Part shown: positions 32,183-60,200 of the stretch, one piece after another
Numbering within the stretch: position 1 is the first letter of the stretch
How the letters are laid out: every line of letters starts with the position of its first letter
Assembly (NCBI RefSeq): GCF_016859285.1
Contig: NC_053419.1
Coordinates: 13,211,501-13,275,500, forward strand
From: Xiphias gladius
Lineage: Eukaryota; Chordata; Actinopteri; Istiophoriformes; Xiphiidae
DNA: 64,000 bases
Reading direction: 5' to 3'
Notes under the pieces: model-generated
What the model was told of the DNA's origin: nothing
The model's database searches: none
What the model saw: only the letters and a program-made list of their open reading frames with translations
Made by a program: the position numbers and the translations under genes

Positions 32183-33541
32183 TCAAACTGTAAAAACAGC
32201 ATCTTTTAACCAACCCCAGAGTCGAGTAAGCCGTAGGCTTACACCCAAGTCGGATAAGTACTGGATTTCTGGTGTGAGCATTTTTTCGCAAATTGTCCTG
32301 AATTCGGGATCAATATCTTTCTTCATGTTGTACCCCAGGATGGAAGACTCTCCAACTGGCTGCCACGGCAGGAAACGGCTGTTCTGAATCTTTTGAGCTT
32401 CAACTGCATCTCCTCCCTCGATACAGATGGCTTTCATCTCAGCATTTCTTCTCCTTAGCTCATTTACCTCCTGTTGCATTCTCTCTCTCCCGTACGCCTC
32501 TACTCTGGCCCAGAAAGTGGCATTAAAGTGCTGATAGAGTCTCCAGTCAGCCCCGTTCCAATCTAAAGCTTTGGCTCTGAACTCAGGGGTCAGTCGGGAT
32601 ACCGATGAGCTCTTGCGAGCATTTAGCTTAAAATATATAATGTCCTCCATGGTCCAACAGAGTATGTCCTTAAGCAGGACGAGAGACTCCTCAAAATATT
32701 CGGCTATGAGGACCAAAGCAAAATGCTTCGATAAGTTATGAATGTTCTTCATCACATGTGGATCATCAGCTTCGACGTTGTTATCAAACCCAAAGTCAAA
32801 AAAGAGCAGATTTTTAAGGTAGAATGAGTTGTAAGCCTCTGGGCTGTAGAAGGTTTTAGGATTGTTTAGAAACTCTGCCAGTTTGTTTTTCCCATGGATC
32901 CTCCATGTCAGAGGAACTGCTCTGTGATAATAGTGGAAGGACGACTCGAAGAGATCCACAGGGTCACGTAAGATGGTCACGTACACGGCATCTGGAGGCA
33001 GGAGCTTGGCTACTTCTTGGTGGTCGAAGCGCATGTGGTTGCAAACAATATTGAAACAGTCTCCAGGCCTGTAGTCCCTCACCTGGGAGCACTGGAAAGG
33101 CGATGGGTAGAAGAAGTCATTGCGCTCATCAGGTAAGGCGAATTTCAGCTTGTGCTTTTCCCCAAATCTGAAGAGGATGTTGATTATAGTGCTGCTAGCA
33201 GTTTTATGGGTCTTCATGAACATGATATTAACTGCAGGGGAGCACTCTTTTGACTTGGTGCTTTGAGAAGGGGTGCTCACATTTTTCAATAATTTTGCCA
33301 TGCTGAGAGAACAAGTATCCTCCTGCGTGCCCCTATAGATAAAGTGTATGGATAAGTAAACAGGCTTATCTCACTAAAAATATATTTATTCACTAAATAT
33401 ATTTCTTTTAAATATGTACCTGATCGTCACTTGAGTTGGGCTCGTCAGGCAGTAGAGCACCAGCATGACGTTGGTCAATAAAACCCACAGAATCAGCCCT
33501 CGTATTACAGGTGTGCACTTCTTTCCTGTGATGCTTGACAT
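32183..33541 (-). CDS. gal3st1: Galactosylceramide sulfotransferase
   Basis: Two coding exons, 33541-33420 and 33302-32183, give 413 residues (human 423). The split codon (AG|C, Ser41) keeps frame. It is a type II Golgi membrane protein: a short cytosolic N-terminus, a hydrophobic anchor near residues 14-36 (VIRGLILWVLLTNVMLVLYC), then the lumenal catalytic domain. The PAPS-binding loop KTHKTASST starts near residue 71, and the second PAPS region ILRDPVDLFESSFHYY is at about 150-166. The C-terminal LTPEIQYLSDLG block is typical of the GAL3ST family. It transfers sulfate from PAPS to the 3-OH of galactose in galactosylceramide, making sulfatide of myelin and kidney. Overall similarity, including FNIVCNHMRFDH and ILCWTMEDIIYFKLNAR, favours GAL3ST1 over GAL3ST2-4. 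Confidence 0.94.
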
Positions 33542-48847: not shown

Positions 48848-48911
<64 letters not shown>

Positions 48912-49371
48912 ATATCTATATCTCCTTTAATTTGTCACTCATCTATACATGTGTCTTCACAAACAAATGTAGATGGAAGCGGTGTATATCTAAGCAGGTG
49001 TATCACTCAGGGTTTATTTTCCAGTAGATTTTCTTCAGATGATGTTTATAACTTCATGCACTATAATCCTGTAACAATTTATTAAGGTTTTTGGACATTC
49101 ATTACCCTGTGTTTTGAAGTTTTCAGGCTTGGATCCGAGGTCCTCTGCCATTTGTCTTGAACTCATCAATTACTACTATGATGGCTGCATCCTGGGTTTA
49201 GAGTTGTATTTTTGACTAAATTAGGAAATTGGAGGCGTATGGACTAAGTTGTGGATTGGGACTAGGATTAGGATAAGGACCACTTCCACCGCTATATGTG
49301 AAAACAAGAAGTGATCTTAAAGTCTGCAGGTGCCCCCATTCTGTGTCAGCAGTGCCACTCAATCAACCACC
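46351..49371. other. prodh-srsf9 interval and srsf9 5' region
   Basis: The left part is AT-rich and holds no gene. A CpG-containing block at about 47760-48330 is the best promoter candidate for srsf9. It includes CGGTGTGCCGGAAATG, an ETS-like site, and ends with TAAAAGGTGAAT, a possible donor. If so, srsf9 has a non-coding first exon spliced to an acceptor just before 49372. Between the two lies a long TA microsatellite. Confidence 0.4.
48853..48909. repeat. (TA)n microsatellite
   Basis: About 28 TA units followed by TATC-interrupted units, within the presumed srsf9 5' intron or upstream region. Confidence 0.96.
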
Positions 49372-51557
49372 ATGTCAGATGGCCGGATCTATGTGGGGAA
49401 TCTTCCCGTGGATGTCCAGGAGAGAGACATTGAGGATCTCTTCTACAAATATGGAAAAATCCGTGACATTGAATTGAAGAACAATAGAGGCACTATACCT
49501 TTTGCCTTCGTCCGATTCGAAGACCCACGGTGAGTGTTTGGGATGGTCTTTGCCAAGTCGAATCCCATTCCCCTTGTTGGATACCTTAATTTATGTAGTA
49601 TAATATCACCTCCAGTGACTGCCAGCAGGGAATGGATGGAGACACCATTTCCAGGTCAATGTCCGCTAGTGAAACAGGCGTACTTTGGTAAGGAGTTCTT
49701 TGCTCTCTTCTCTTAGGGATGCAGATGATGCTGTCTATGGAAGGAATGGATATGGATATGGAGACTCCAAGCTGCGTGTAGAGTATCCTCGATCTTCTGG
49801 TGCTAAATTTGGTCCTATGGGAGGTGGTGGTGGTGGTGGTGGAGGACCTAGGGGAAGGTTTGGACCCCCAACTCGAAGATCTGAATTCCGCGTCATAGTG
49901 ACTGGTAGGTGGACGTCATGAGTCATAGCCAGTTAATATTTATCTCTCTTTCACTGTGACCTGGAAGTCAACTGGTAGGAAGATGGACTTAAGAGTCGTA
50001 GGCAGATATGTTTCTCTCTCACTCTCATGGCGGATTGGAGGACAAAGGGCCTAGTAGAGGACGTCATGAGTCATAGGCAGATACGTTTCTCTCTCTCTCT
50101 AATGGCGGATTGGAGGACAAAAAGGGACTAGTAGAGGACGTCATGAGTCGTAGGCAGATATGTTTCTCTCTCTCTCTCGTGGTGGATTGGAAGACAAGGG
50201 GACTAGTAGAGGACGTCATGAGTCGTAGGCAGATATGTTTCTCTCTCTCTCTCGTGGTGGATTGGAAGACAAGGGGACTAGTAGAGGACGTCATGAGTCG
50301 TAGGCAGATATGTTTCTCTCTCTCTCGTGGTGGATTGGAAGACAAGGGGACTAGTAGAGGACGTCATGAGTCGTAGGCAGATATGTTTCTCTCTCTCATG
50401 GCGGACTGGAGGTCAAAACTGGAGGGACTAAGTGGATGAGGTCAAGTCAGCTCCTTATGTCATGAAAAACAAAACGGTGAACTGAAACTGGTCATGTTGG
50501 CTGCATAATCCCAAACACCAACTATAGTGACTGGTAGGTGTCATTTTGTCATTTATCATTAATTATTTGTTGTGTGCTACATTTATCTCATGTTTATACA
50601 ATCATGTTTGTACAAGCTGTTAGAACTGGACCACTTATTTAAGACAAACTCCATAAATTCTTAGGTTCATATAGTTGCCTGACTTGACCGGTCATACTAG
50701 AGCAGATTTCTGGAAATACAACACAGTGGGTTGCTGGTCTGAAAATATTGGGGTTCTCAGAAATATTCACCCAACAAGATCATTTAAATTAATTAATGTT
50801 GACTTTTATCTTCAAGGGGTAGATTTCCCTAACTATCTGCCTAATAGTATTGGTAGTATCTATTTACATCTAGCTTTTAAATTTCAGTTGCTGTTAAGCT
50901 CAGACTTCATAGAAATGATTTTAAAAGGTGTTTATCTCAAAAGGGTTTACGCTTTGGACAAAAGATGAAACCTGTCCTTGCAATGATTTTAGGTTTAAAA
51001 TGACAGGCAAATTAAGGCAGGGAAGTAACTCTTTTTTTTCCCCCATCACATTTGTCTTTTTCCCATTTCAGGGTTACCACCATCTGGGAGCTGGCAGGAT
51101 CTGAAAGATCATATGCGCGAGGCAGGCGATGTTTGCTTTGCAGATGTGCAGCGAGATGGAGAGGGTGTGGTGGAATTTCTCCGTAGAGAGGACATGGAGT
51201 ATGCTTTACGCAGACTGGATCGGACCGAGTTCCGTTCACATCAAGTGAGCGGCAGTGATGATGAAATTTAATTGTCGTTCAGCCTTTAAATGGTTAAAGA
51301 AACAAGTGTAATGCTTTTTCCTTTTGTAGGGCGAGACTGCTTACATCCGTGTCTATGAGGAGAGGGGCACTCCCAACTGGGGTCGGTCACGTTCCCGCTC
51401 CAGATCCAGAGGCCGCTATTCACCTCCCTACCATAACAGAGGATCTCCCCCTCCACGCTACCAGTCGCCTCCACGCCATGCTATGTCGCGCCATAGTCCG
51501 CCCCCCAGGAGGCACCCTCCACAGCACCATAGCCCACCGCCGCGTCATTATCGGTAG
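49372..51557 (+). CDS. srsf9: Serine/arginine-rich splicing factor 9
   Basis: Coding exons: 49372-49529, 49717-49904, 51072-51244 and 51330-51557, giving 248 residues (human 221). Junctions are GT-AG and in frame. RRM1 (about residues 4-78) has RNP2 IYVGNL and RNP1 PFAFVRFE. A glycine-rich hinge with nine Gly in a row follows, partly coded by a GGT run at 49823-49849. RRM2 is the pseudo-RRM type with the invariant SWQDLKDHM. The C-terminus has a short [11 protein letters not shown] stretch and then a Pro/His-rich tail ending PPPRHYR, longer than in mammals. The factor binds exonic enhancers and 5' splice-site regions in the nucleus. SRSF1 is the close alternative, but the [19 protein letters not shown] segment and short RS domain favour SRSF9. 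Start: 49372 has context ACCACCATG; an in-frame ATG at 49330 is less likely. Confidence 0.95.
49901..50420 (+). repeat. 75-bp minisatellite beginning at the srsf9 exon 2 donor
   Basis: Seven tandem units can be anchored on the TCATGAGTC-like motif at 49916, 49989, 50064, 50141, 50216, 50291 and 50364 (spacings 73, 75, 77, 75, 75, 73). Each has a GACTAGTAGAGGACGTCATG-like head, a GTAGGCAGATATG segment, a CT-rich run and a GGTGGATTGGAAGACA-like tail. The first unit starts inside the exon: its head is the exon/intron junction GACTG|GTAGGTGGACGTC. Since 75 is a multiple of three, long open frames run through the array on both strands; they are not genes. Confidence 0.93.
50524..50540 (+). repeat. 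Second copy of the srsf9 exon 2/intron junction
   Basis: ATAGTGACTGGTAGGTG at 50524-50540 is identical to the last ten exon bases plus first seven intron bases at 49895-49911. It lies about 100 bases beyond the end of the minisatellite, so the array is bracketed by two copies of the junction. Confidence 0.9.
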
Positions 51558-57261: not shown

Positions 57262-60200
57262 CTTTAACAAGTCGTTCATTTAGCCATCCATGCGCACTTT
57301 TGCAAAGCTGATATTGACAGAGTTTGCACTAAGAAGTTTCACTGACCATCATCCAGAATAACTAGTAGGGGAGCCAGTAGATCACACATGCCTTGGACGT
57401 AACCTGTATCCAGATGCTGCCATACATAACTATGAAGACAACCAGATTTTTATCACAGTGTTGATTTGTCTCACCTTTTGGGTTGAGACAAACCTCAGAT
57501 ATATTTCGCCTGGCGACACATTTACCTGCACATGATGTTACGCAGTTTCTCAAGGTTCTCAGGAGTAAAGTACCAGTATGTTCTGTCACAACGTCTGACA
57601 TCTTTGTCAATGCGATGTAAGTTGATTAAGTACATGTCCAGTGTTTCTTGCTACAAAAATAACAGTGAATTCAGTTAGTATATGTTGATGATTAAAGGAA
57701 TATATGTGTCTGTAGGTCGTGTGTCATGCTTACAGAATAGGTTTGTTCTTCTGAGGATTCATCGTGTTTGGTGTCTCCTCCCACCTCTGCAGATTCTGGT
57801 TCAGTGAGCACATTGTCCATCTCAGGTTCCTCTTCAGAAAGGCCCAGGTCTGTGCCCTCAGGACTGGTGTTACAAGCTGTGTCCAGATGGTGATCCAGGA
57901 CAAGGCCCTCAGGTGCCATTTTCTCTCTTTGTGCCAGAGAGATAGGTGGTGCAGCAAGGCCTGCCAAAGGCCTGGCCTTAATATCCTCGGAAGTCACATA
58001 TGTTATCCCTGAAGGAATGTCCTCCATTTCCAGTGCAGAAGGAGAGTCATCTGAATCTGCTGTGTCTGGAGACTGCCGAGAGTGGGACGATAGTGTAAGG
58101 CTCCCCCTTGACGCTGACTGAAGAGCATTCAGTACTTGTCTGACTGGTGAATTTGAACCAGGTTTCTCAAATGGAATTTCTGCAACTTTGTCCCTTTTGG
58201 TTTCAGCTAAGTCACAAACTGTTGCTTCAGCTTCCTTTCTTTCTGGCTCAGAGGCACAGGTTTTGAGCATCTGTGATGGGTTTTTTTCAGAAGGTGTTTC
58301 AGGTTTGTCAGAAATCCCTGGCTTTTTTTCAATTTGGTAATCAGTATCTTTTCCTGCTGTAGGCGGACATAATGGCACCACTTCTAGAGCTTTGCTCTTG
58401 CGTGCTTGAGAAGTCAAGGTAACCCCAAGTGGAGGTGCTTGGAAATATTCATTATGAATCTCTGTTTCTAGCTTTAGAACATTAGTATTCTCTGGAGCAG
58501 ATCTTATATTCATATTTGTGTCTACTGCTTTTAAATCATTAGATTGTTCATTTGTTGTTATATCTTTTCCTTGTACTTCAGGTTTTTCTTCAGCTTCAGA
58601 TGTCTCTTTTGACTTGCTGATTCCGGTGTCCACAACTACGTCACTTTCTGAAAGTTTCTCCATCTTTTCAATCTCTGAAATCTTGTCCTTGGCTGCTGGG
58701 TCCATATCATTTGTCTCTCCTCCAGTTGTGATTTCCTCATTTAAGACTTCAGCTGATGGTTTAGAAGTTGTAGATCCAACAGCTGACTCTGGTACAAGAA
58801 GCTTGTTTTCCAAACCTGGACGCTGATTTGACAGACCTGGAGAGGAGGGGTTGAAGGAGGGAAGTTGTGAAGAGTCTGCAGTTCCATTTGTGATGTCCTT
58901 CACTGGACTACTGTGCTGTACTTCTCCTTTCTCAGGCCTGGGCTCAGACTCAATCTGATCCACTGCCTCAACTGATCCAAATACCTGGTAACCAAAGAAG
59001 AGTGGTGAAGTTGCAATACATTTTGGATTCAACAGCACTGAGATGGACTAATGTTGAAGGATTACAGCAATTGTTTTGTATGTTTGAGCCCATTAGTTAC
59101 AAATCACACATACTTTAAATTACTGCTGAAAAATTCCCAAGGCATAAAGTAAGTTCCAACCATCCAGGCAGCCTATGGATTCCATTCACTTAATTACCAG
59201 ATGAAAATTACTTTGAGATTTGAAACATGCATAGGATGTAATATGTAATCTATCACAATTAACAGTTTTTTTTGTTTTTTTTTACATTTTAACATCTAGG
59301 TAAATTCAAGGACGCATCCAAGATTTAAGAGTTGGCTGCCAAAGAGGAAACTCTTAAGCCATGCTAGCGGACTGGCTCTAGAGGTGGCAATGTCGGATGG
59401 TTGGTAGGTCAGTCTGCCACTTTGGTCAACGTTTTTACCTACTTTGAGAAATATCTCATCATTAACTTGATGGATTGGCAGGAAAGTTTGTGTAGATATT
59501 CATGGTTCCACAACAATGTATCCAAAATCATTTGGTGATCCTCTGACTTTTCCTCTAGCGCCACCGTGATGTTAACATTTGAGGATTTGAGTGAAATACA
59601 ACAACTATTGGATGGATTGCCATAAAATATGGTACACACATTCATGTCCCCCTATGAATGGTAATCACTTCAGTGATCCTCTGACTTTCATCTAGCACCT
59701 TTATTGTGTCAAAATTCCAGTTTGTTCAATATTGACTATTTAACAATTCCCAGCAAGTATCCCTGGATCAATTTTAATGACATTTTGAAATTAATGGAGG
59801 CCAGTGGTTGTCACTCTAAAACGTTAAAGCATGCTGTGGAAAATGGAACTTGTTGACTGCAAATAAATTGTTACAATTGGGCTAAAACACACAAAAACAC
59901 TGGACTGATCTATTATTAGAGATAAAGGAAGTGTTTTTGTGATGTTCATGCTTATGAAAAAACTACCTGTACGCTACTGCTGGAATCACTCTGTGAGTGG
60001 GAATTCTGTTGATCTGAGCTGCTACTTAGAGACGACTGGAGTGGAAAAAGCATCACACAAGAGACAAATAGCAGAACTGTCAGCCAAGTTACTTAAAAAT
60101 TTAATCATAATACTATAAAATGTTCCCTTTCATGTTGTGTATGTTGCAATAATTGTTACATAATGCAGCACATTTTTATTCTAAAACATCAAACTTGCAT

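Follow-up and report, generated by a model that had tools for sequence, protein, structure and literature searches.

A donor-bearing 75-bp minisatellite between two exact copies of a splice junction in an SRSF1/SRSF9-type gene

How did a splicing-factor gene come to carry a minisatellite that begins in one of its own splice donors, and does the array affect which donor is used? The gene, apparently from a fish, lies on the plus strand of a 64-kb stretch of DNA (the window, meaning the whole of the sequence analysed).

49372..49529, plus strand: coding part of exon 1 of the SRSF1/SRSF9-type gene, from an intact spliced open reading frame
49717..49904, plus strand: exon 2 of the spliced frame, ending in GTGACTG
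51072..51244, plus strand: exon 3 of the spliced frame
51330..51557, plus strand: coding part of exon 4 of the spliced frame, including the stop codon

The four exons join into an intact frame of 248 amino acids. The introns are all GT/AG and measure 187, 1,167 and 85 bp, which makes intron 2 the longest. The product has two RRM stretches, and its closest solved structures in PDB are SRSF1 entries. An earlier note on this DNA had named the gene srsf9, a label that fits known features of the SRSF9 sequence; on the present evidence the gene is of the SRSF1/SRSF9 type. Upstream of it there is a TA dinucleotide run of 34.5 copies (48853-48921). The minus strand of the window has a 395-aa open frame at 32186-33370 matching Galactose-3-O-sulfotransferase (PF06990, E 5.1e-142) and a 451-codon open frame at 57695-59047 without a Pfam match at E 0.001. 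An Rfam and tRNA scan of the 64-kb window gave no match.

The array and the exon 2 donor

The array occupies the beginning of intron 2.

49900..50444, plus strand: 75-bp minisatellite that starts in the donor and has seven units; an eighth, decayed head is doubtful
50051..50060, plus strand: first of five CTAGTAGAGG heads, which are weak donors; the others start at 50128, 50203, 50278 and 50351

Tandem Repeats Finder places the 75-bp array at 49993-50397, with 5.4 copies and 94% matches. In two of three scoring schemes, wraparound alignment of the 75-bp consensus starts at 49900 and so takes in the final 5 bp of exon 2; these alignments end at 50444 or 50397. Under the third scheme, which has the cheapest gaps, the alignment extends back to 49688, and we read that extension as spurious. 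Outside the array, none of the stretches tested aligned to the consensus better than its 60 shuffles. The stretch 49500-49911 scored 12 against a shuffle maximum of 16. The decayed head at 50424-50444 also scored 12, which is not above its shuffle maximum of 12 or 18 (depending on the stretch taken), and the eighth unit is therefore doubtful.

Cut at their heads, the seven units measure 70, 79, 77, 75, 75, 73 and 77 bp. Counting aligned bases only and leaving gaps aside, units 4 and 5 are identical, unit 6 is the same but for a 2-nt gap, and identity to units 4-6 is 93% for unit 7, 89-90% for units 2 and 3 and about 80% for unit 1. The middle of the array looks young and its left end old, and the near-identity of units 4, 5 and 6 only suggests a recent turnover. 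CTAGTAGAGG is present five times in the array, and pyrimidine runs, seven in all and 10-16 bases long, lie at intervals across the units. The exact unit patterns had 0 matches in viral contigs and prokaryote contigs, as expected.

The earlier note had proposed that the unit heads resemble the exon 2/intron junction. For units 2 and 4 this resemblance is beyond chance, and the two schemes that start at 49900 give the best alignment the same register. Unit 2 opens with ACTGGTAGG, nine bases exactly shared with the junction. The heads of units 4-7 read GACTAGTAG where the junction reads GACTGGTAG, with unit 4 agreeing at 8/9. When about 20,000 random 17-mers of the window were compared, a fraction of 0.00065 matched unit 2 as well as the junction does, 0.0072 matched unit 4 as well, and 0 matched both equally well. 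Aligned locally to the junction, the head region of unit 2 gave P 0.0032 against 5,000 random places, in an alignment that takes in bases of the unit body; for units 3-7, gap-penalised anchored alignment of each head by itself is marginal (P 0.017-0.055). On balance, the repeat unit appears to include the splice donor. The array abuts the exon 2 donor, and the donor is in register with the unit, as in a splice-donor minisatellite. The further proposal that the array grew from the donor holds up insofar as the unit includes the donor, but simple growth in place is an incomplete account, given an exact 17-bp copy of the junction beyond the array.

A second copy of the junction and the origin of the segment between

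That copy, and the segment that it delimits, are as follows (a slash marks the splice point).

49895..49911, plus strand: proximal 17-bp junction copy, ATAGTGACTG/GTAGGTG, with the GT of the true donor at 49905
50524..50540, plus strand: distal, exact 17-bp junction copy, with the GT of an alternative donor at 50534
49912..50523, plus strand: putative 612-bp insert, array plus tail, between junction copies with unrelated flanks; matched in the genome by this locus only
50445..50523, plus strand: non-repetitive tail of the putative insert

The 17 bp across the true junction, ATAGTGACTGGTAGGTG, recur without change 629 bp downstream, past the array, and both copies consist of ten exon and seven intron bases. 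The distal copy is the main feature that the earlier note lacked; the good donor in unit 2, described below, was likewise absent from it. The window contains 1,378 pairs of exact 17-mers no more than 2 kb apart, of which 993 were dropped as low-complexity. Among the 385 that were left, the only places listed that do not stem from the array itself are 3138/3203 and 49895/50524. The former is an exact 17-bp direct repeat, its copies 65 bp apart, that passes the complexity filter.

The left flanks of the two junction copies show no likeness (alignment score 0), and their right flanks are no more alike than chance in two tests (P 0.13 and 0.41). The ten exon bases of the distal copy stand without exon sequence preceding them. 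Since the edges are sharp, these exon bases have no exon before them and 612 bp lie between the copies, the anatomy argues for an insertion with target duplication. It looks as though a 612-bp segment entered exactly at the exon 2 donor, duplicating 17 bp of the junction and leaving a complete donor on each side, and as though the array then grew from the near copy. A tandem duplication starting inside that copy would have founded the 75-bp array; unit 2 has kept a good donor, and units 3-7 would since have lost theirs. The present state of the units is read directly, and the order of these events is what we infer.

It is unlikely, in our estimate, that there was no insertion, the array having grown in situ from the donor and the far 17 bp being a later short templated copy or the last remnant of the array. 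The homology of the unit heads to the junction is what such growth would leave, and so is a genome in which no second copy of the insert was found. It accounts poorly for the stranded exon bases of the distal copy, for a right flank there that is unlike unit 1 (P 0.41; 0.13), and for the state of the junction bases, of whose 17 the unit-2 head keeps 10 and the distal copy 17. The distal copy was also considered as an old end of the array; comparison of the array start with the intron after the distal copy gave P 0.41, 0.49 and 0.13, and this candidate was set aside as unsupported. The insertion that we prefer and growth in situ imply different ancestors. If there was an insertion, the ancestral intron 2 would have begun with GTAGGTGTCATTTTG directly after exon 2, and under in-situ growth the older start would be GTAGGTGGACGTCATGAG.

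The perfection of the distal copy hints at youth or constraint. If it dates back to the divergence of unit 1 from unit 2, which are 24% different, survival of 17/17 bases has a probability of about 0.11 with one copy free to change and 0.009 with both. At 11% divergence the corresponding values are 0.38 and 0.14. Because survival ranges from 0.009 to 0.38 over these levels, the perfect match proves neither.

Short exact direct repeats flanked by unrelated sequence are also what a transposable element copy would leave, with the 17 bp as its target-site duplication. We consider this improbable. The genome searched comprises 690,834,319 bases in 1,298 contigs, and the search passes over very common words. 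At the sensitivity used, queries with the entire insert, with one unit, and with the tail plus the distal junction each matched only their own locus in these 690.8 Mb; further copies, as expected of a transposon, were not among the matches, and with no second copy found there is no known mobile source. Against the rest of the 64-kb window the insert gave only short, weak matches, the best of them (E 0.009) on CT runs. No inverted repeat pairs were reported in 49700-50600, the insert has no poly-A end, and the absence of Rfam and tRNA matches in the window also weighs against an element.

Donor choice and its possible consequences

The earlier note had pointed to five decayed donor look-alikes in the array, CTA/GTAGAG, as pseudo-donors that could influence which donor is chosen, or autoregulation. 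We scored donors with a donor matrix and took percentiles among all plus-strand GTs of the window.

49972..49980, plus strand: candidate donor of unit 2, CTG/GTAGGA, with its GT at 49975; second best alternative donor of the intron by the matrix
49919..49921, plus strand: in-frame TGA, read from donors 49975 and 50534 (computed) or from any other beyond 49921

By this matrix, the true donor at 49905 scores 4.06. The best of the 81 later GTs in intron 2 is 50534, which scores the same 4.06, and the second best is 49975 in unit 2, at 2.45. The five CTA/GTAGAG sites score -4.28 (percentile 56.5) against these values, and on such poor scores they were dropped as donors of importance. If the intron does sway donor choice or autoregulation, 50534 and 49975 would be the better candidates.

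Donor 49905 must be the main splicing route: the reading frame shows that it yields the intact 248-aa protein, which the two good alternatives fail to do. Some use of those alternatives would be ordinary, since the far donor repeats the true one exactly, through ten exon bases and seven of the intron, and the unit-2 donor is good. A minority of transcripts would probably be spliced from 50534, lengthening the exon by 629 nt, or from 49975, lengthening it by 70 nt. Either product would carry the TGA at 49919, which then precedes the exon 3/4 junction by 788 nt (donor 50534) or 229 nt (donor 49975); a donor before 49919 gives a product without that stop. A stop well upstream of a later exon junction is expected to lead to nonsense-mediated decay, and both alternative products should undergo it. 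A predicted early stop with an exon junction still to follow is the pattern of unproductive splicing in SR genes. We put the probability of the whole reading at roughly 0.5, meaning insertion with duplication of the donor, growth of the array, minority use of the far or unit-2 donor, and decay.

A tenable reading that we lean slightly against has the same origin with no function: all splicing goes from donor 49905, and the array is a neutral repeat within the intron. In its favour, the proximal donor is the first in order and follows the coding exon, the five donor-like sites of the array are poor, and stronger pairing is predicted at the distal donor. Use of the repeat donors in ABCA7 was minor as well (PMC5954066). 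An inert array has more difficulty with a far donor identical in every letter to the true one, and with a unit-2 donor that is also good. Our estimates for the several readings are not all exclusive of one another, since the inert one shares its origin with the preferred explanation; in-situ growth and a transposable element differ from it in origin.

If the alternative donors are used as the preferred explanation has it, the content of the insert may bear on how often. Pyrimidine runs such as the seven in the array are of a kind to which PTB binds. The sense strand of the insert has 29 GGA triplets, a count inflated by repetition, the repeat copies not being independent. In 3,107 overlapping 612-bp plus-strand intervals off the array the mean is 7.6 and the maximum 27, the latter in an interval at 49241 that overlaps exons 1 and 2 of the same gene; the highest count in minus-strand intervals of this length is 20. 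Over a dinucleotide-matched model, which averages 18.5, the excess in the insert is modest (P 0.010). GGA triplets are bound by both SRSF1 and SRSF9, according to a review (PMC9022966). The insert has few of the SRSF9 motifs that this review lists (GGAGGA 2, CTGGATT 0, GACGAC 0), and TGGATT occurs three times. With 29 GGA triplets and seven pyrimidine runs in the insert, a switch to unproductive splicing driven by SR proteins is possible.

An HIV study describes intron-bound SR proteins as inhibitory and, citing Erkelenz 2013, an SR-motif-rich insert by which the upstream donor was suppressed and a downstream cryptic donor activated (PMC8227319). The array between its two identical donors has the same geometry as the insert modelled there. 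Because the GGA- and CU-rich array follows the near donor and precedes the far one, a push toward the far donor is expected, and GGA-binding SR proteins, possibly including the gene's own product, would thereby lower output. Taken to its full extent, a young insertion would have given the gene a self-limiting switch: an array of variable length would silence the productive donor as intron and enhance the unproductive one as exon, and the strength of the negative feedback would depend on copy number. We regard this as a long shot; the rarity of SRSF9 motifs in the insert, a distal donor predicted to be more paired than the proximal one, and the low, size-independent level of the one-unit-retention isoform in ABCA7 (described below) count against it.

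RNA structure was rejected as a driver. Shuffled versions of the 681-nt region fold better than the region itself (z +3.80, with 20/20 shuffles folding at least as well), and the proximal and distal donors are both more paired than the regional average: the predicted mean unpaired value is 0.12 for the distal donor and 0.26-0.28 for the proximal one, where the region averages 0.40-0.43. The unit-2 donor is predicted at 0.34 to 0.62. Separately, the end of exon 2 (49886-49901) has an imperfect inverted copy in unit 1 (49951-49966), matched at 13/16 positions, which by chance is expected at about 0.002 per start position (6,000 starts). The hairpin predicted from these two segments has z -2.78 against 300 single-base shuffles. 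The true donor may lie in this hairpin, which we note as a minor lead.

Comparison with known systems

Our searches of the open-licence literature found no paper joining a tandem repeat or minisatellite, an intron and splicing-factor autoregulation, and none on srsf9, zebrafish and a minisatellite together. Nor did they, though not worded exactly so, find an array bracketed by two exact whole-junction copies in a splicing-factor gene.

Related systems share single features with this locus. IFI6 (6-16) has a splice-donor minisatellite, reportedly described by Turri et al. in 1995. The unit of the IFI6 minisatellite is 12 bp. Two of its downstream repeat units serve as donors (PMC4526556). Both genes have a repeat at an exon's donor. 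The present array differs from that of IFI6 in its 75-bp unit, in that most units lack a donor, in the junction copy beyond the array, and in that donor use here is predicted.

The VNTR in intron 18 of ABCA7 is likewise an intronic repeat with the donor in its unit. According to the report on it (PMC5954066), the 25-bp unit begins with a donor, retention of one unit is out of frame, and the authors point out SRp30c (SRSF9) motifs in the unit. The isoform retaining one unit amounts to 2 +/- 1%, independent of VNTR size; copy number was genotyped, and skipping of exon 19 rose with it. The present case differs from ABCA7 in that the host gene itself is an SR-type splicing factor and a second copy of the junction stands on the far side.

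Introners offer a parallel, being insertions with splice-site sequence in their target duplication. They take splice sites from target-site duplications, create new introns and occur in several to thousands of copies (PMC9860276). Here there is one segment, inside an existing intron 2, at one locus, which sets it apart from introners as described there. SR protein genes are known for unproductive splicing coupled to decay, and the cases named in one account of it involve ultraconserved elements (PMC4379411). The likeness lies in an alternative splice choice in an SR gene with an early stop read, here predicted. The difference from those named cases is that a repeat, likely young, stands in the place of an ultraconserved element.

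Two identical donors split by a natural repeat of possibly variable length would offer a clean test of how SR-site position and copy number act in 5' splice site competition, and the product of the tested gene would itself be such an SR protein. The locus also suggests that duplication of a splice donor is a way for a gene to survive an insertion placed exactly on it. Minisatellites that bear a donor are known from IFI6 and ABCA7; what appears to be new here is an array lying between two exact copies of the junction, in the gene of a splicing factor.
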